Origin: Deltaproteobacteria bacterium RIFCSPHIGHO2_02_FULL_44_16 | Lineage (GTDB): Bacteria; UBA10199; 2-02-FULL-44-16 | Direction: 5' to 3' | DNA: 64,000 bases | Assembly (NCBI GenBank): GCA_001798185.1 | Contig: MGRM01000014.1 | Span: forward strand, 1-64,000 | In this document: positions 7,777-63,476 of the stretch, in pieces | How the letters are laid out: every line of letters starts with the position of its first letter | Position numbering within the stretch: the stretch's first letter is position 1 | Position numbers and translations under genes: made by a program | Notes under the pieces: model-generated | What the model saw: the letters and a program-made list of their open reading frames with translations, nothing else | Database searches by the model: none | What the model was told of the DNA's origin: nothing

Positions 7777-8495
7777 AAACGAAGTTTTGTTTTGCCATAA
7801 CGATTGTTTCTTTCTTGTTCGCTTGTCAGGGAAAACAACCTCCTTCGGCATCGCTTCGTCTTTTCTCTGCACATGAGACCGTTTTTTCTCGCATGCTTCA
7901 TCAAAGATTTCTGGCGGAACAATCAACTCGAAGTGTCGTTCGAGGTTTGGCTGAAATGACATGGCGCGATTCACATGGTACTCGCACTTCTGATGTCGCT
8001 CTTCATCTTCAACTTCCTCACGATCTTACAGCAGAAGCTTTTGATGCTCTTGCGGATGTGTGGGCGAAAATCCGAACCGACGGGAAGAAATTTTTTTTTG
8101 AGGTGCTGACAGATCGTGGGAAAAGACGCGGAAAAACAACAGAGCGACATCTGGCGAAATTTTTTTCTTTTGAATGGGAAACCGAAGAGTTCGTGGCAGC
8201 GCTTGCGGGAACGCTCCCTTTTTTAACTTCAGATATTTTTCTTGAAGAAAATCGTTCTCTCTTTCATTTTCAGCAGAGACCTTTCACGTTTCGAATTGAT
8301 CAAAAGGGGAGAGTGCTTTCGTATCGTCGTGGAGATGAATCAGGCACAAAGACTCTTTATGAAGTTCATTTTTCTGACTATCGATTGCATGGGAAAACTT
8401 TTTTCCCTTATCGTGTTGTGATCAAACTCCAAGAGAGAGAGTTGTCTCTTCGTTATCGTGAGGTGAAGTTCAATGAAGATGAGAAGTCATTTTAA
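7773..8495 (+). CDS. LolB-like lipoprotein
   Basis: The 240-residue protein has a lipoprotein signal (ITIVSFLFAC). Its body matches the LolB/DUF4292 pattern: an early G-A-x-M-x-W strand (VRGLAEMTWRD), antiparallel strands, and a late VHFSDYRLHGKTFFPYRVVI typical of the half-barrel's last strands. Start GTG 7773 overlaps the TPR gene stop (GTGA). Such proteins help place lipoproteins in the outer membrane; assignment is by fold pattern only. Its final codons (AAG TCA TTT TAA) form the left arm of P1 element 1. Confidence 0.6.
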   Translation: MKTKFCFAITIVSFLFACQGKQPPSASLRLFSAHETVFSRMLHQRFLAEQSTRSVVRGLAEMTWRDSHGTRTSDVALHLQLPHDLTAEAFDALADVWAKIRTDGKKFFFEVLTDRGKRRGKTTERHLAKFFSFEWETEEFVAALAGTLPFLTSDIFLEENRSLFHFQQRPFTFRIDQKGRVLSYRRGDESGTKTLYEVHFSDYRLHGKTFFPYRVVIKLQERELSLRYREVKFNEDEKSF

Positions 8496-8613
8496 AACAT
8501 TTCGTTGTTGCGGGTCCTGTCACCTCCGCCGTTCCACCTCCCCGCTGGCGCGGGGCGCCCCTGGGATCCAGCGTCGGCGACACCCGGACTATGTGGATTT
8601 TAAAATGACTTCT
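8482..8613 (+). repeat. P1 palindromic element, copy 1
   Basis: The outer arms AGAAGTCATTTTAAAA (8482-8497) and TTTTAAAATGACTTCT (8598-8613) are perfect 16-base inverted repeats. The GC-rich core between them begins GCGGGTCCTGTCACCTCCGC, contains the hairpin CCCCGCTGGCGCGGGG and ends GGCGACACCCG. The left arm holds the stop of the LolB-like gene, and the right arm holds the start ATG of the peptide-binding protein. Core subtype A, shared with copies 4, 5 and 7. Confidence 0.9.
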
Positions 8614-10188
8614 AAAATTTTTTTCACGCTGCTGTTTCTGTTATTAACAAGTTGCACCTATCGACTGGAGCGGGATGCTCGTGAATTGGTGATGCATCTT
8701 GCCGCAGAGCCTGCAACGCTCAATCTTCTCACGTATTCGGATCATTATGGTGCTCAAGTTTTAGGCAATATCTATGAACGTTTGATCGACGTGGATGCAA
8801 AAACGCTTACGTTTACTCCAAAACTTGCGACGCATTGGGAAATTTCAGCAGACGGCAAAACGATTACCTTTTTTCTCCGTGAGAATATTCGTTGGCACGA
8901 CGGATTTCCTTTTACGGCAGACGATGTGATATTTACATTTGAGCGTATTCTCGATCCCGCAGTGGATGCTCCACGCCTTCGTCAGCAATATCTCGATGTC
9001 GAAAAGTTGGAGAAGATTAACGACTATACTATTCAGTTTCATTATAAACGTCCCTATTTTGGCGCTTTTTTTACGGCAGGAGCACTTCCTGTTCTTCCGA
9101 AGCATGTTTTTAAAGCTGGCGAAAATTTTAATGCACATGAAATTGGGCGTAGTCCCATAGGAACAGGGCCTTATCGTTTTGTGTCGTGGGAGAAAGGACG
9201 ATCACTGCGTCTTGTGCGTCACGAGGAATATTGGGATCATAAACCACAAATCAAAGGAATCGTTTTTAATATTATTCCCAATGGCACCGTTGCATTTCAA
9301 TTCTTGAAAAAGGGAGGACTCGATCTTTTTGAACTCTCTCCGATGCAATGGGAAAAGCAGAGCTCGAGTCATTCTTTTCAAGAGCGTTTTCGTAAGTATC
9401 ACTATTTCCCTCCTAATTTTTCTTTTATTGCATGGAATATGAGGCGGCCTCTTTTTGCGGATAAACGTGTGAGGCAAGCGATGACCATGCTTCTCGATCG
9501 TTCTTCCATTATCGAGAAACAACTTGGTGGCTTAGGGAAGATAGTGACCGGAAGTGCCTATCCTCTCAGCAAAGATTACGATACTTCGATTGAACCTCTT
9601 CCATATAACCCTGAAAGGGCAATAGCTCTTTTGCGCGAAGCGGGATTTGATGATCACGATGGAGATGGACTGCTCGATCGAGAGGGAGTTGTTTTTGAAT
9701 TTACCTATCTCTATCCAAATAACTCGAACTTTGGGAAAAAAATTGGATTGCTTCTGCAACGGCAGCTGCAAAATGTCGGCATTCGAATGCATCTCGAACA
9801 ATTAGAATGGGCGACACTTCTTTCTCGTATGCAAAAGCGTGACTTCGATGCATTATCGCTCTCATGGATTCCTCCACTTCAGGCCGATCCGTTTCAACTT
9901 TGGCATTCTTCACAAGCAGATCGAGGTTCCAATATTTCGGGATTTCGACATGCAGAAGTGGATCGTCTCTTGGAAGAGGGAAGAACTCTTTTTGATGAAG
10001 ACGAGAGAGCCAAAAGATATCAAAAGGTGCATCGTTTGCTTTATGAGGAACAACCCGTGCTTTTTTTATTTCAGATGCCGACGCTTGCTGCTGTCAGTAA
10101 GAGATTTGAAAATGTTCAAGCATATCCTTTAGGGCTGAAGCCTCGAGAGTGGACAATTGAGAGTACCGCAATGCTGAAAGCATGGTGA
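8605..10188 (+). CDS. peptide ABC transporter substrate-binding lipoprotein (family 5)
   Basis: The 527-residue protein starts with a lipoprotein signal (FFTLLFLLLTSC) and matches DppA/OppA: ATHWEISADGKTITFFLREN, WHDGFPFTADDVIFTFERI and RSPIGTGPYRFVSWEKG are hallmark stretches of SBP_bac_5. It should capture oligopeptides outside the inner membrane for the permeases that follow. Start ATG 8605 gives the signal peptide at once; it lies in the right arm of P1 copy 1, and the open frame continues upstream through the element to 8473, giving an Arg-rich extension that is probably not used. First gene of a five-gene transporter operon. Confidence 0.93.
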   Translation: MTSKIFFTLLFLLLTSCTYRLERDARELVMHLAAEPATLNLLTYSDHYGAQVLGNIYERLIDVDAKTLTFTPKLATHWEISADGKTITFFLRENIRWHDGFPFTADDVIFTFERILDPAVDAPRLRQQYLDVEKLEKINDYTIQFHYKRPYFGAFFTAGALPVLPKHVFKAGENFNAHEIGRSPIGTGPYRFVSWEKGRSLRLVRHEEYWDHKPQIKGIVFNIIPNGTVAFQFLKKGGLDLFELSPMQWEKQSSSHSFQERFRKYHYFPPNFSFIAWNMRRPLFADKRVRQAMTMLLDRSSIIEKQLGGLGKIVTGSAYPLSKDYDTSIEPLPYNPERAIALLREAGFDDHDGDGLLDREGVVFEFTYLYPNNSNFGKKIGLLLQRQLQNVGIRMHLEQLEWATLLSRMQKRDFDALSLSWIPPLQADPFQLWHSSQADRGSNISGFRHAEVDRLLEEGRTLFDEDERAKRYQKVHRLLYEEQPVLFLFQMPTLAAVSKRFENVQAYPLGLKPREWTIESTAMLKAW

Positions 10189-12013: not shown

Positions 12014-12991
12014 ATGTCTTTATTAGAAGTGAAACATCTCGAGACACATTTTTATCACGAAAAATCGGTGATCAAGGCTGTCGATGGCGTCTCACTTTAT
12101 TTAGCCAAAGGGGAAGCTGTCGGTATTGTCGGCGAAAGTGGTTGTGGAAAAAGTGTTTTTGCCCACTCTCTTTTGCGGTTAATCCCTTCTTCTCATGGCC
12201 GCATTGTGGGAGGAGCGATTATGTATCATCTTCCTCATCAACCAAATCCGATCGATTTGATGAAACTTCCGGAAGAAAAGATGCGTTCGTTGCGGGGAAA
12301 AAGAATGGCCATGATTTTTCAAGAGCCGATGACATCGCTCAATCCACTCTCTACGATTGGAGATCAAATTGCAGAGGCGATCGCTCTTCATGAAGGCGGG
12401 AGTCGTGCGGTGATTCGCGATCGTACGCTTGAAATGTTACAGCTTGTGGGGATTCCCGTTCCAGAGAAACGGATTGATGCTTTTCCGCATGAACTCTCGG
12501 GTGGAATGCGTCAGCGAGCCATGATTGCGATGGCGCTTTCGTGTAAGCCTGACATTCTGATTGCAGATGAACCGACCACAGCGCTTGATGTGACGATTCA
12601 AGCTCAAATTTTGGAACTTCTCGCAAAGCTTCGTGAACAATTGGGAATGGCGCTGCTTCTGATTACGCATGACTTAGGAGTTGTGGCTGAAGTCGCGCAT
12701 CGCGTGATGGTGATGTATGCGGGAAAATGTGTTGAAGAAGGGACGGTGCAAGAAATTTTTCATCACCCAAAACATCCCTATACACAGGCGCTTCTTCGAG
12801 CTCTCCCTTCTTTTGGAAAAAGAGGAGGAAAGCTTCCCACGATTCCAGGAGCTGTCCCTTCGCTCGCACATTTGCCTGAGGGATGTGCGTTTCAAGATCG
12901 CTGCCCCAAAGTACAAGAGCGATGTCGAAAAGGTGCGGTTCCTGATGATCCGTCTCATGTCGGAAGACTGGTGAGATGCTATTATGCATAA
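12014..12991 (+). CDS. peptide ABC transporter ATPase, DppD/OppD type
   Basis: The 325-residue nucleotide-binding subunit has Walker A GESGCGKS, signature LSGGMRQR, Walker B ILIADEPTTALD and the OppD/DppD C-terminal domain with clustered cysteines (CAFQDRCPKVQERC), which in this family bind an Fe-S cluster or stabilise the tail. ATG 12014 has AGGA just upstream. Its stop codon lies in the left arm of P1 copy 2, which separates it from the second ATPase gene. Confidence 0.94.
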   Translation: MSLLEVKHLETHFYHEKSVIKAVDGVSLYLAKGEAVGIVGESGCGKSVFAHSLLRLIPSSHGRIVGGAIMYHLPHQPNPIDLMKLPEEKMRSLRGKRMAMIFQEPMTSLNPLSTIGDQIAEAIALHEGGSRAVIRDRTLEMLQLVGIPVPEKRIDAFPHELSGGMRQRAMIAMALSCKPDILIADEPTTALDVTIQAQILELLAKLREQLGMALLLITHDLGVVAEVAHRVMVMYAGKCVEEGTVQEIFHHPKHPYTQALLRALPSFGKRGGKLPTIPGAVPSLAHLPEGCAFQDRCPKVQERCRKGAVPDDPSHVGRLVRCYYA

Positions 12992-13129
12992 AGCTTATTT
13001 TCAAAAGTATTTATTGTCTGCGGGTCCTGCCGCCTGCGGCATTCCGGAAGTTTTGCTGATACGCAATAACTTCCGAAATAGCCTCCGGCGTCACCCGCAG
13101 TTAATTATCTCTTTTGAAATAAATTTTAT
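12988..13129 (+). repeat. P1 palindromic element, copy 2
   Basis: Imperfect inverted arms (ATAAAGCTTATTTTCAAAAG at 12988-13007, CTTTTGAAATAAATTTTAT at 13111-13129) surround a subtype B core: CTGCGGGTCCTGCCGCCTGC ... GGCGTCACCCGCAG with an internal CCGGAAGTTTT / AACTTCCG hairpin. The left arm contains the stop codon of the first ATPase gene. The element ends before the ribosome site AAAAGGA of the second, so the operon is interrupted but no protein is. Confidence 0.85.
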
Positions 13130-37120: not shown

Positions 37121-37785
37121 AAAAATTTTTCTCTCATGTTTCCTCGTCACTTCTCACATTTTTTTATCCTTCTCGATGTCCTTTGTGTGAAGCGTGGTCG
37201 CTTCATCATGATAAAGTATGTGAGACATGTGTCTCTTCTCTTCATCCTCTCCCTGCTGCATTTACTGCGCCCATATTGCATCGTGTCTGGTTTCAAGAAG
37301 CAAGGAGCGCTGTGGCGTATGAAGGGAAGTTAATCGATGCGATCTGGAATTTTAAATATCATGAACGATTTGATCTTCTTCCTTTCTTTACGCACCTTCT
37401 TTTCAAAAGTTTTCCCGAAAAAACGTATGATCTGATGCTCCCTGTTCCGTTACATCAAAAGAAACTTGCGAAAAGAGGCTTTAATCAGGCGGGAATGCTT
37501 GTGCAGTCGCTTTCTGCACGGATAGGCGTTCCGCATGATCTTTTTCTTCTCGAGCGAAGACGTGCAACAGAGACGCAAGTGAGAAAAGAGGTGAAAGAGA
37601 GAGAAGAAAATGTTCGCGATGCATTTGCGATTAAACTTTCTCAGAAAGAAAAACTTTCTCAAAAAAATGTTTTGTTGATTGATGATGTCATCACTACAGG
37701 CGCAACCGTCAATGAATGTGCAAAAGCGCTTATCAAAGGAGGGGTTCAATCGGTCGATGTCTTGACGATTGCACGACCATTATGA
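37117..37785 (+). CDS. ComF family phosphoribosyltransferase-like protein
   Basis: The 222-residue protein has an N-terminal zinc-finger-like CPLCEAWSLHHDKVCETC and a C-terminal PRPP-binding motif LLIDDVITTGATV, as in ComFC/GntX. These proteins are tied to DNA uptake or processing in some species. ATG 37117 overlaps the gpmI stop. Its own stop codon begins the left arm of P1 copy 3. Confidence 0.9.
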   Translation: MKKFFSHVSSSLLTFFYPSRCPLCEAWSLHHDKVCETCVSSLHPLPAAFTAPILHRVWFQEARSAVAYEGKLIDAIWNFKYHERFDLLPFFTHLLFKSFPEKTYDLMLPVPLHQKKLAKRGFNQAGMLVQSLSARIGVPHDLFLLERRRATETQVRKEVKEREENVRDAFAIKLSQKEKLSQKNVLLIDDVITTGATVNECAKALIKGGVQSVDVLTIARPL

Positions 37786-37923
37786 AAGCGTTTTTCAAAA
37801 CAGATCAAGATTCGGGTGACGCCGGAGCGTGTTCCGGGAGGTCTCCGTCTTTAGCGGAGGGCCGGAACACCGCAGGCGGCAGGACCCGTATCCAATGAGC
37901 AAACGTTTTTAAAAACGCTTTTC
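37784..37923 (-). repeat. P1 palindromic element, copy 3
   Basis: Arms GAAAGCGTTTTTCAAAAC (37784-37801) and GTTTTTAAAAACGCTTTTC (37905-37923) are inverted repeats with one mismatch and one extra base. The core, read on the minus strand, is subtype B (CGGGTCCTGCCGCCTGCGG ... GGCGTCACCCG). The left arm overlaps the ComF stop TGA. It lies between the ComF gene and the inositol phosphatase gene. Confidence 0.88.
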
Positions 37924-46695: not shown

Positions 46696-46710
46696 GCCAA
46701 ATCAACTGAT

Positions 46711-46847
46711 GAGAACTTATTTCAAAATGTTTGCTGTTCGCGGGTCCTGTCACCAGCGCCGTTCCACCTCCCCGCTGACGCGGGGCACCCCTGGGATCCG
46801 GACGCTGATGCCACCCACAATCATCACCAATTTTGAAATAAGTTCTC
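46711..46847 (+). repeat. P1 palindromic element, copy 4
   Basis: Arms GAGAACTTATTTCAAAAT (46711-46728) and ATTTTGAAATAAGTTCTC (46830-46847) are perfect 18-base inverted repeats. The core is subtype A (CGCGGGTCCTGTCACC ... CCCCGCTGACGCGGGG ... GGGATCC). The element ends 9 bases before the gyrA ribosome site AAGGAG. Confidence 0.92.
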
Positions 46848-46870
46848 TATGCTTTTAAGGAGTCACCATC

Positions 46871-58899: not shown

Positions 58900-59529
58900 T
58901 TAAAGTGTATGAATAAAATCAGCTAGGTGTTTTGGTGAATGGAGAATATAATCTGCTCGTGCGTCCCGTAACTTTTGTTCACTGTGAAGTCCCCAGGTTA
59001 CTCCGATAGCGGTGATACCTGCGAGTTTGGCTTCTTTCATGTCTCCAATCGTATCCCCGATGTAAAATGTTCGATTTTTTTCGAGAGAAGATTTTTCAAG
59101 CAGGAAGTGAATGCGGTCAACTTTATTTGTAGCCCCATCTCCTCCAAGAATATCGGTGAAATGAGAAGTCAGCGAATGTGACGTCAATATTCTGTTGATC
59201 GTCAACGTGGTATTGGACGAAACAATGGAATTTGTTGTTTTCAGTTCAATGTTTTGAAAAAATTCAGGAATTCCCTCAAAGAGAGAGATGTGATTCGTCT
59301 CACTTGCCTTGTCCAATTCAAGAAGAATCTCGTTAATATGATGTTGATGAACACCTCGTTTTTGAAATCCATAAATAACATTCGTTTCAAAAAGAGCCTG
59401 TAAATCTTCAGGAGATTGAAGAAAATTATATTCGAGTGCGATGAGGCGATCGTAGACAAGCTGCTGATAGAGGTTCAGAGAGTCTGCGATGACGCCATCG
59501 AAATCAAAAATGAGAAGAGGTTTCTTCAT
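58900..59529 (-). CDS. HAD family phosphatase, phosphoglycolate-phosphatase-like
   Basis: The 209-residue protein has HAD motif I LLIFDFDGVIADS, motif II IVSSNTT, Lys in the DGATNKVDRI region, and motif IV YIGDTIGDMKEA, with a helical cap between I and II. This fits Gph-like phosphatases; the substrate is not shown. ATG 59529 overlaps the mutY stop (TGA) by one base pair step, so it is translated with mutY. Downstream (58772-58793) lies a 22-base perfect palindrome built on TTGCGGGTCGACCCGCAA. Confidence 0.88.
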   Translation of the reverse strand: MKKPLLIFDFDGVIADSLNLYQQLVYDRLIALEYNFLQSPEDLQALFETNVIYGFQKRGVHQHHINEILLELDKASETNHISLFEGIPEFFQNIELKTTNSIVSSNTTLTINRILTSHSLTSHFTDILGGDGATNKVDRIHFLLEKSSLEKNRTFYIGDTIGDMKEAKLAGITAIGVTWGLHSEQKLRDARADYILHSPKHLADFIHTL

Positions 59530-60698
59530 GCTTGGGGGTCTACAAAGCGGGCTTTGACAAGTTTTGCAATCACTTCTTTGTTTGCAGGGGGAAATGTATA
59601 TTGGGTCAGCTCTTGTGGCTTAATCCATTTCATTTGCTGTGCCTCTTGCGATTTTGGTTTTCCCTTAAGAATCGAGCAGCGATGAAATCGGATATGAACC
59701 TGTCGATCTTCATAGGTGTAATCAGCTGTCCAATCGTGAGGCCGCACAGCTACTTCAATTCCTAACTCCTCTTTTATTTCTCGCTTGATGCAATCACGCC
59801 ACGACTCTTTTCCTTGTCGTTTGCCACCAGGGAATTCCCAATAGCCCTCAAGATGTTTTCCTTCGGGACGGCGTGTGATGAGAATGTTTCCATTTTTGTG
59901 AATGATCGCTGCCGCGATTTCGATTGATGGTGTACGAGAACGGGTTTCAAAACTGATGGGATACGGGTGTCGCCGAGGTCGGATCCCAGGGGCGCCCCGC
60001 GCCAGCGGGGATGTGGAACGACCGAGGTGACGGGCCCTGGAACCAATTTGTAGCGTTTTGAAATCCGTTCTCGATAAGGTTGAATACGAGCATAAGGGTC
60101 TCATCGGACAGATCAAACATGTCGGATCTTTCGCAGTACAAACAGCTGATCCAAAATCCATCATGGCTTGATGAAAGGCCCAAGATTTTTTCTTCGGCAC
60201 AAAATCAGCAGCATGCTCAGCCACTTCTTTGAGAAGATTCTTTCCGGTAATCCCAAACACACGCGAGAGAACCCGACTGGTATTGGTGTCAAGCACGAGC
60301 ACATCTTGTTCATATGCAAAAACTGCAATTGCACGGGCAGTGTAAGGACCAATTCCTGGAAGTGCTTCAAGGTCTTCGACCTTTTCGGGAAAGATTCCTT
60401 TATATTGTTGAACAATAACCTTTGCTGCTCGCAACATATTACGTGCACGACGGTAGTATCCGAGACCGCGCCATGCCGAGAGGACTTGTGGCCACCTTGC
60501 TTTGGCAAGTGTTTTGATATCGGGGAATTTTTGAAAGAAACGCTGATAATAATCGATGACCCGATCAACTTGGGTTTGTTGGAGCATCATTTCAGAAACC
60601 CAAATCTTGTAGGGATCACGTGTCTTGCGCCACGGAAGATTACGACCATTGGTTTCAAACCATTTTAGAAGCTGCGATGTAAATTGACGATGATTCAT
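59526..60698 (-). CDS. mutY: adenine DNA glycosylase MutY carrying an in-frame P1 insertion
   Basis: The 390-residue protein has the glycosylase Glu in WVSEMMLQQTQV, helix-hairpin-helix LPGIGPYTA, catalytic Asp in VLDTNTSRV and the Fe-S cluster C-x6-C-x2-C-x5-C (CTAKDPTCLICPMRPLC). The C-terminal part is a NUDIX-like domain (GYWEFPGGKRQGKESWRDCI). MutY removes A opposite 8-oxoG. Between Fe-S and NUDIX domains, residues about 209-255 are encoded by P1 copy 5 and give an Arg/Pro-rich segment ([14 protein letters not shown]) absent from normal MutY. It lies in the linker, so function is probably kept. Confidence 0.93.
   Translation of the reverse strand: MNHRQFTSQLLKWFETNGRNLPWRKTRDPYKIWVSEMMLQQTQVDRVIDYYQRFFQKFPDIKTLAKARWPQVLSAWRGLGYYRRARNMLRAAKVIVQQYKGIFPEKVEDLEALPGIGPYTARAIAVFAYEQDVLVLDTNTSRVLSRVFGITGKNLLKEVAEHAADFVPKKKSWAFHQAMMDFGSAVCTAKDPTCLICPMRPLCSYSTLSRTDFKTLQIGSRARHLGRSTSPLARGAPGIRPRRHPYPISFETRSRTPSIEIAAAIIHKNGNILITRRPEGKHLEGYWEFPGGKRQGKESWRDCIKREIKEELGIEVAVRPHDWTADYTYEDRQVHIRFHRCSILKGKPKSQEAQQMKWIKPQELTQYTFPPANKEVIAKLVKARFVDPQA
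59935..60073 (-). repeat. P1 palindromic element, copy 5, inside mutY
   Basis: Arms CGAGAACGGGTTTCAAAAC (59935-59953) and GTTTTGAAATCCGTTCTCG (60055-60073) are inverted repeats with one mismatch. The core, on the minus strand, is subtype A. It is read in the gene's frame without a stop, in the same orientation and frame as the upstream extension of the peptide-binding protein in copy 1 (shared peptide [12 protein letters not shown]). Confidence 0.92.
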
Positions 60699-61090: not shown

Positions 61091-61903
61091 ATGCATCATA
61101 TCTCGATTCTCCACGCGATCATTCTTGGGATTATTCAAGGCGCCACCGAGTTTCTCCCCATTTCCAGTAGCGGTCATTTGGTATTAGCCCAAAATCTTTT
61201 GGGGGTTGATCTCGAAAAAGAAGCACTCCTTGCATTTGATATTGCGCTTCATTTTGGAACGCTTTTGGCGCTCCTCCTTCTCTTTCGAAAAGATCTGAAG
61301 ACACTCATACAAGGAGCTTTCCAAAAAAATTCAGAAAATCCGCAGAGCGTGCCGTCAAGAAAATTACTCTGGTATCTTTTTTTGGCGACGCTCCCTGCCG
61401 TAGTGATCGGACTTGCGTTCAAAGATTTTTTTGAAGAGATGATGACCGATACGTTTTCGACGGGTGTGCAGTTTATCATCACCGGTTTTATTTTGTGGTC
61501 GACACGATATGCCCGTTTCTCTGTGCTCACAGCGACGCATATGCGATCGATGCATGCACTCATCATCGGCGTTGCTCAAGCAATAGCGATCATTCCGGCT
61601 ATTTCCCGTTCGGGGACTACCATTGCAGCGGCACTTCTTCTTCGTTTCGATCGTGAATTTGCGGCTCGTTTCTCTTTTTTACTTGCGATTCCAGCTTTGG
61701 GAGGAGCGACACTTTTGAGTCTTGACAATCTTCGATATTTTTCTTCAGAAAATCTGCTCGCGACATTGATCGGAACTGTCGTTTCATTCATTGTCGCGAT
61801 CGGCTGCATCAAGTGGTTGATGACGATCATCAAGAAAGGTCAGTTTTCCTGGTTTGCGATCTACTGTTGGATTATTGGTTTATGTGCAATCTTTCTTGCC
61901 TAA
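61091..61903 (+). CDS. uppP: undecaprenyl-diphosphatase (bacitracin resistance, BacA type)
   Basis: The 270-residue membrane protein begins ISILHAIILGIIQGATEFLP with ISSSGHL and has the second motif IPAISRSGTTIAAALLLRF. These are the catalytic regions of UppP, which recycles the undecaprenyl carrier for cell wall synthesis. ATG 61091 is the only start fitting the family but has no Shine-Dalgarno, since the tRNA-Asp ends just upstream. Its stop lies in the left arm of P1 copy 6. Confidence 0.95.
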   Translation: MHHISILHAIILGIIQGATEFLPISSSGHLVLAQNLLGVDLEKEALLAFDIALHFGTLLALLLLFRKDLKTLIQGAFQKNSENPQSVPSRKLLWYLFLATLPAVVIGLAFKDFFEEMMTDTFSTGVQFIITGFILWSTRYARFSVLTATHMRSMHALIIGVAQAIAIIPAISRSGTTIAAALLLRFDREFAARFSFLLAIPALGGATLLSLDNLRYFSSENLLATLIGTVVSFIVAIGCIKWLMTIIKKGQFSWFAIYCWIIGLCAIFLA

Positions 61904-62041
61904 GAAATAATTTTAAAACAGATCAAGATTCGGGTGACGCCGGAGGTGCTTCCGGGAGGGTCTCCCGCGATAAGTGGGAGGGCCGGAACACCGCAGGCGG
62001 CAGGACCCGTATCAATGAAATGTTTTAAAATTATTTCTTAG
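61900..62041 (-). repeat. P1 palindromic element, copy 6
   Basis: Perfect 20-base arms: CTAAGAAATAATTTTAAAAC (61900-61919) and GTTTTAAAATTATTTCTTAG (62022-62041). The core is subtype B, read on the minus strand, nearly identical at its ends to copy 3 (GATCAAGATTCGGGTGACGC, CGCAGGCGGCAGGACCCGTA). Each arm contains a stop codon, one for uppP and one for rarA on the other strand, so both proteins end in the element. Confidence 0.93.
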
Positions 62042-63476
62042 AAGATGTGCGCCACTTCTTTAATCGTTCAGAGATTTCTTTTTCTTCCCCGTTTTCGGTC
62101 GGTTCATAATAAATGGTCCCTTGCAGTTTTTCAGGAAGATATTTTTCACCGATAACAAAATTTTCTTCATAGTCATGTGCGTATTTGTAATTCTTGCCGT
62201 AATCGAGTTCCTTCATGAGTTTTGTCGGAGCGTTGCGAATATGTTTTGGTGTTTGCAGCACTCCGTGCTTTTCTATATCTGTTTTTGCTTTCTTGTATGC
62301 CATATAACTCGCATTCGATTTGGGAGCGCTTGCGAGATAGGTCGCGCACTGCGCGAGCGGAATCCATCCTTCAGGCATGCCGACAAAATCAAACGCTTGC
62401 ATGCAGCTGATCGCCACTTGCACTGCTTGCGAATCAGCGTTGCCGATATCTTCTGATGCAAAGATCACCATGCGGCGAGCGCAAAAGAGAGGCTCTTCGC
62501 CGGCCTCTAACATGCGTGCGAGATAGTAGATAGCAGCGTCAGGATCAGAACCGCGCATACTTTTGATGAATGCGCTGATGACATTGTAATGTTCTTCTCC
62601 TTTTTTGTCGTAAAACAGACTTTTTTTCTGCAGCGCTGCTTCGACATGGTTCAGGTTTATGCAAAAACCAATTTCAAAACGATCCGCAGATACGGGTCCT
62701 GTCACCTCCGTCGTTTCACCTCCCCGCTGGCGCGGGGCGCCCCTGGGATCCGACGTCGGTGCCACCCGTACGCCATCTGTTTTGAAATGTGTTTTGACAA
62801 GGTCAGCAGCAATTTCCAATGTATTCAACGCCCGACGTGCATCACCATCAGCGCTTGCGCATAAAAAGTTGAGAGCATCATCGTTCATAGTCAGATGAAA
62901 TTTCCCAAGTCCTTTTTCTTCATCCTGTAAGGCTTTCAACACAACTTTTTTGAGATCACCATGTGAGAGAGGTTCAATCACATAAACTTTGGTTCGAGAA
63001 AGAAGCGCGCCGATGACTTCAAACGAAGGGTTTTCCGTAGTTGAACCGATGATCGTAATCGTGCCGTCTTCAACGTGCGGCAGAAGTGCGTCCTGCTGCG
63101 CTTTATTCCAGCGATGAATTTCATCAATGAAAAGAAGACTTCGCTGACCGTTAAATTTTCGGGCTGTGTTTGCCTCTTCGATAATGTCGCGAAGTTCTTT
63201 GACGCCAGAAAGAACTGCAGAGAGTTGAAAAAATTTTGCTTTCGTGTGATGCGCGATAATTCGTGCGAGCGTGGTTTTCCCCGTTCCCGGAGGTCCCCAG
63301 AAGATGATCGAGGGGAGGGTGTCAGCTTCGATGAGAGACGTAAGAGGTTTCCCTTTGCCGATGAGATGCGTCTGGCCGACAACGTCTTCAAGTATTTTGG
63401 GCCGCATCCGCTCTGCGAGGGGAGCATGAGTGCGCGCGATCTGATCAAAAAGAGTGGCCATAGCTTCATGAATCAT
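62031..63476 (-). CDS. rarA: replication-associated recombination protein RarA (MgsA/WRNIP1 family) with in-frame P1 insertion
   Basis: The 481-residue AAA+ ATPase has [20 protein letters not shown], Walker [14 protein letters not shown], Walker [21 protein letters not shown], sensor 1 [12 protein letters not shown] and the family's C-terminal [20 protein letters not shown]. RarA acts at stalled replication forks. Residues about 228-271 are encoded by P1 copy 7 ([20 protein letters not shown] ...), between [10 protein letters not shown] and [11 protein letters not shown], where other RarA proteins have a short connection. Start ATG 63476; ATG 63461 (MATLFDQ) is possible. The last codons are in P1 copy 6. 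Confidence 0.93.
62664..62795 (+). repeat. P1 palindromic element, copy 7, inside rarA
   Basis: Arms AAAACCAATTTCAAAAC (62664-62680) and GTTTTGAAATGTGTTTT (62779-62795) pair at 15 of 17 positions. Core subtype A, on the plus strand, opposite to the gene. It is read through in the gene's frame without a stop, in a different frame from the mutY copy. Confidence 0.92.

Follow-up and report, generated by a model that had tools for sequence, protein, structure and literature searches.

How can a palindromic repeat lie in frame within a gene such as rarA, and what keeps the two ends of such a repeat matched to each other? A reading made from the letters alone (the sequence-only reading) had described a repeat inserted in rarA without a stop or frameshift. 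The window analysed here, i.e. the whole 64,000-nt stretch of DNA (contig MGRM01000014.1), bears this out, as the 481-aa ORF is intact and full length, with zero stops and zero frameshifts, and its product carries the Pfam domains AAA (57-164), AAA_assoc_2, which is split into two stretches, and MgsA_C (309-476).

The element in rarA and its effect on the protein

The element measures 136 bp, is in frame and is read in the sense of rarA, where it encodes approximately 45 residues (230-274), in line with the estimate of about 44 made earlier. The repeat itself was correctly located, while its ends, first given as 62664-62795, lie 2 bp further out on each side (62662-62797) according to the covariance model. 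Its orientation is opposite to that in mutY, as had been proposed, with the copy there (59935-60073) lying antisense to the gene. A single long hairpin is predicted for the rarA element (z of -4.5/-5.0 versus shuffles), and a covariance-model search of the window against Rfam 15 matched only tRNAs, none of them on the element.

The alignment with RarA homologues and the structural model that the sequence-only reading had suggested agree with an insertion. The relatives compared, which belong to other genera of the same class, share 57-74% identity with RarA, the catalytic motifs being retained, and their alignment covers residues ~3-230 and ~272-477 with a short variable loop in between. This loop comprises ~50 residues here versus ~8-27 in the same-class relatives, and the net gain is therefore ~23-42 aa. 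The element is absent from rarA of all same-class relatives aligned, and a search of the alignment for homologues with the same residues found none. E. coli RarA (3pvs) is alignable at residues 14-229 and 284-475, the insert having no counterpart there. In an AlphaFold2 model based on a 26-sequence alignment, residues ~235-270 form a coil with pLDDT mostly below 50, and the remainder of the protein is mostly above 90. As such, the insert is predicted to protrude as a disordered loop, flanked by helix 213-234 on one side and helix 275-287 on the other, and the cell should translate rarA with this extra loop, which would be nearly neutral to function.

Table 1. Copies of the palindromic element in the window, with the genes and the core motif discussed in the text.
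Feature	Position	Strand	Remarks
Copy of the element	8480..8615	-	directly upstream of the coding portion of a lipoprotein-like ORF
Copy of the element	12988..13129	-	between adjacent + strand ORFs, ABC-transporter-like by sequence
Copy of the element	37783..37923	+	between two co-directional ORFs
Copy of the element	46710..46848	-	intergenic, near-perfect 19-bp arms
mutY	59526..60698	-	390 aa
Copy of the element in mutY	59935..60073	+	in frame, antisense to mutY, between glycosylase part and NUDIX domain
Copy of the element, second subfamily	61901..62040	+	between convergent ORFs; the stop codons of rarA and of the + strand ORF 61091-61903 lie in its arms
rarA (RarA/MgsA)	62031..63476	-	481 aa, intact; contains the insertion
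Palindromic element in rarA	62662..62797	-	outer arms of 10 bp, inner arms TTTCAAAAC and a hairpin core; source of rarA residues ~230-274
Core GGGTCCTGTC...CACCC	62694..62767	+	phylum-wide motif

Copies in the genome and across the phylum

The genome census was based on model searches and retrieved stretches. Within the same 1.98 Mb genome (G000), blastn gave 29 matches to the element, and a covariance model built from these matches (E<1e-8) identified 65 distinct copies, 7 of which lie within the window. At least three subfamilies, with an outer layout common to all, are found in both orientations in ORFs, at their starts and ends, and between genes. The rarA case is real but not isolated, since 15 copies are in frame inside 14 ORFs, in both orientations, and another lies in dnaE of a relative. 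Family searches identified the hosts as FeoB, MnmE, RarA, MutY, MutL, MiaA, MetH, YggS, PyrD, a LivF-like ATPase, a methyltransferase with two copies and a TolB-like protein; for one in-frame host (L024) the search gave no family. Among element-by-frame combinations, 95 of 390 are open, and wherever long ORFs on both sides were accompanied by internal stops (5/5), the copy lay between two separate genes, so that gene disruption by the element was seen in none of the five cases checked. From this pattern of frames and ORF positions, insertions in coding DNA seem to pass a filter for frame and tolerance. The inner length modulo 3 of the in-frame copies is 2 in six, 1 in seven and 0 in one; the six with a remainder of 2 fit a unit of the core plus one 10-bp arm, which is only suggestive.

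Several repair and tRNA-modification genes are found among the hosts (mutL, miaA, mutY, rarA), and the adjoining mutL and miaA (L194, contig C2) carry one in-frame copy each. In addition to the element inside it, rarA has its own end within the arm of another (61901-62040). The two in-frame copies of the methyltransferase-like ORF (L187, 1847-2163) are ~36 bp apart. At L224 (2061-2199; C23:4361-4499), an in-frame copy lies directly upstream of an apparent signal peptide and separates it from the start codon, and the arrangement at C9:232400 is similar.

Outside this genome, the core GGGTCCTGYC-N50-80-CACCC was found in 27 of the 46 class genomes, the same 46 being all the phylum genomes examined, and a control pattern gave approximately zero matches. 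The counts are highest in G017 (80) and G000 (59), followed by G015 (24), G019 (21) and G034 (15), and the single match in some genomes is due to chance. Viral contigs were considered as carriers and rejected, the palindromic flanks of the 79 pattern matches read being ≤6 bp, i.e. chance. In G017 (L305, L309, L327, L361 and others), the same core lies within a larger repeat, AACGC...GTTGGAGC-TTCG[core]CTTC-GCTCCAAC...GCGTT, the boxes of which look attC-like. The in-frame copy in dnaE belongs to another genus (L259, G022 contig C46), and G040 and G018 lack it at the corresponding site. Where G022 has copies, the element is absent from the matching sites of G040, G027 and G018, and the flanks at the junction are too diverged to show what was inserted or to distinguish an arm derived from the target from one brought by the element; an LRDS match in G018 dnaE is apparent only and not positionally homologous.

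Arms that match within each locus

The ten bases outside TTTCAAAA and TTTTGAAA are mutual inverted copies, pairing at 75-98% per position across the 65 copies versus 26-64% (positions 1-10) after shuffling of the flanks between loci. One and two bases beyond the arms, pairing is down to 46% and 43%, and by 3 bp outside it is at chance. The arm sequence varies from locus to locus in G000, yet matches itself within each locus, and the arms of each genome follow a loose consensus (NNARAANTCATTTC in G000). Arm length differs among genomes: ~12-13 bp in G017, where 15 copies have identical 69-nt cores and differing flanks, mostly 24-27 bp in G022, and ~30 bp in G006 and G012, with short or interrupted arms in the copies looked at in G019 and G034. 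The G022 copies (L255-L264, G022/G040) commonly have GGTG to the left and AATTATT to the right of the arms, and the unit there may reach beyond the arms.

Covariation was found in 40 pairs, 23 of which show compensatory change, a level reached in 0 of 500 shuffles. In helix 1, both sides have changed in 15 of 19 pairs, and the changed pairs are almost all Watson-Crick, with few G-U. G022 and G040, which belong to the same genus, both carry the element at two loci (L255/L264 and L258/L286), and 10 of the 11 arm changes read from the alignments of these orthologous pairs are mirrored in the opposite arm (seven substitutions and three indels), one being unmirrored. Such mirrored changes point to copying between arms at the DNA level through template switching during replication, possibly with the arms derived from the target by inverted duplication. 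This locus-specific, mirrored evolution of the arms goes beyond what the sequence-only reading had seen.

Taken as a whole, we regard the following as the best explanation and a probable one. A small non-autonomous palindromic repeat, i.e. a MITE- or RPE-like hairpin, would have spread through G000 and related genomes of the phylum, presumably as a mobile unit, and survival within coding DNA would have been limited to copies that maintain the frame and lie in surface or linker loops. Changes in one arm would be copied to the other by template switching in the hairpin during replication, leading to perfect pairing, as the two orthologous pairs suggest. During insertion or shortly afterwards, bases at the outer ends might be taken from one flank and reverse-complemented to the other side, giving each copy arms of its own; this is the least certain step, and we advance it tentatively, with a slight lean towards doubt. 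Rather unlikely is a more specific version, namely that insertion leaves an inverted instead of a direct copy of the target by means of a hairpin intermediate that, once attached to one flank, serves as the primer for synthesis back along that flank. If true, inverted target copying would account for the genome-specific arm lengths (10, 12-13, ~25 and ~30 bp), and we know of no described bacterial element with such an inverted target-duplication signature. The excess of direct flank repeats that a direct target duplication would leave was not found in the 65 copies, nor was an autonomous version of the element in the loci read. Y1_Tnp was rejected as a transposase partner; it is common, yet absent from G019 with its 21 core matches, and its presence does not follow copy number.

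The arms might instead belong to the mobile unit, being inherited with it and drifting neutrally in lockstep, while the target contributes nothing. The loose consensus within genomes is not predicted by a pure target origin and, together with the mirrored divergence at orthologous loci, allows such element-borne arms. However, arm distance in G000 is independent of core distance (Mantel r of -0.02), with means of 0.51 at core distances below 0.05 versus 0.58 at 0.4-0.5, and G017 pairs with identical cores show an arm distance of 0.63, so that homogenising gene conversion among the cores, or a strong constraint on them, would be required. We consider this origin of the arms possible but doubtful, and favour their acquisition at or after insertion because the correlation between arms and cores is zero. 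It also seems unlikely that the hairpin has a host function, as a structured RNA or protein-binding site whose pairing is kept by selection through compensatory substitutions and not by copying, even though the covariation is very strong across the whole stem, including the inner stems, and the arms vary while the cores are conserved. No Rfam family matches the element, and copies lie in both orientations, within genes, in the spaces between them and across start and stop codons; furthermore, because indels are mirrored and G-U intermediates are scarce in helix 1, copying between arms is favoured over selection at the RNA level. Insertion of the core at the centre of pre-existing palindromes, i.e. 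targeting of hairpin tips, would fit the observation that one core caps two different hairpin types in G017, but is very unlikely and was rejected, as the arms in G022, G032, G006 and G012 are 24-30 bp long and mostly perfect, and random or coding DNA offers such arms far too seldom for every copy to have found them as a target. Finally, that rarA is a decaying pseudogene, a prospect raised by the sequence-only reading, or that the insert is an assembly artefact can practically be dismissed, since the frame is full length and the catalytic motifs are conserved, many copies with differing flanks lie inside long contigs of several genomes, and no evidence for either was found.

Relation to known repeat families

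In behaviour, the element is closest to the Rickettsia palindromic elements (RPEs), which according to the summaries of Ogata et al. 2000/2002 (PMC10969869, PMC3767692) are ~100-150 bp long and lie in frame inside unrelated genes. As in those summaries, we found a palindrome of that size (136 bp, one hairpin) with several subfamilies and 65 copies, 15 of them in frame in 14 unrelated ORFs whose genes are not destroyed, which supports the earlier suggestion of RPE-like behaviour outside the Rickettsiales. In contrast to the RPEs of Rickettsia and Wolbachia, the host lies outside that order, and the element is in frame in both orientations and has locus-specific mirrored arms and the phylum-wide GGGTCCTGYC/CACCC core. 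We classify it as a protein-coding palindromic element by behaviour, the likeness to RPEs being behavioural and an origin independent of the RPE families being assumed. As such, it would be a second case of protein-coding palindromes, in another phylum than that of Rickettsia and Wolbachia and probably unrelated to theirs, with the insert being carried by conserved genes of repair and translation (mutY, mutL, rarA, miaA, mnmE).

Like MITEs (ERIC/RU, Correia; PMC2759123, PMC10969869), the element is short, non-autonomous, bounded by inverted repeats, intergenic and sometimes intragenic, but it lacks a shared terminal sequence (the outermost 10 bp vary), a direct target duplication and a recognisable transposase partner. 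REP/RAYT systems (PMC2817692, PMC3733652) are likewise palindromic genomic repeats, and Y1_Tnp genes occur in most genomes of this phylum; however, the element is 136 bp long versus 20-40 bp for REPs, is often intragenic, and is present in G019, which has no Y1_Tnp match. The coding palindromes of Nematomorpha mitochondria (PMC6649704) also consist of perfect inverted repeats located in functional protein genes, but both arms there encode conserved protein, whereas the dispersed repeat described here adds new residues.

The behaviour of the arms is the part that deserves follow-up. Template switching has been reported to create and maintain hairpin stems (PMC8794818) and to homogenise the arms of inverted repeats (PMC8604942), and the copying of multi-base changes between stem arms is common to those systems and to ours. 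The published cases come from RNA genes and, in yeast genes, from short inverted repeats, whereas here a dispersed bacterial repeat offers dozens of parallel cases, and its locus-specific, self-matching arms and mirrored indels make selection versus template switching in the upkeep of hairpins testable by strain comparison.
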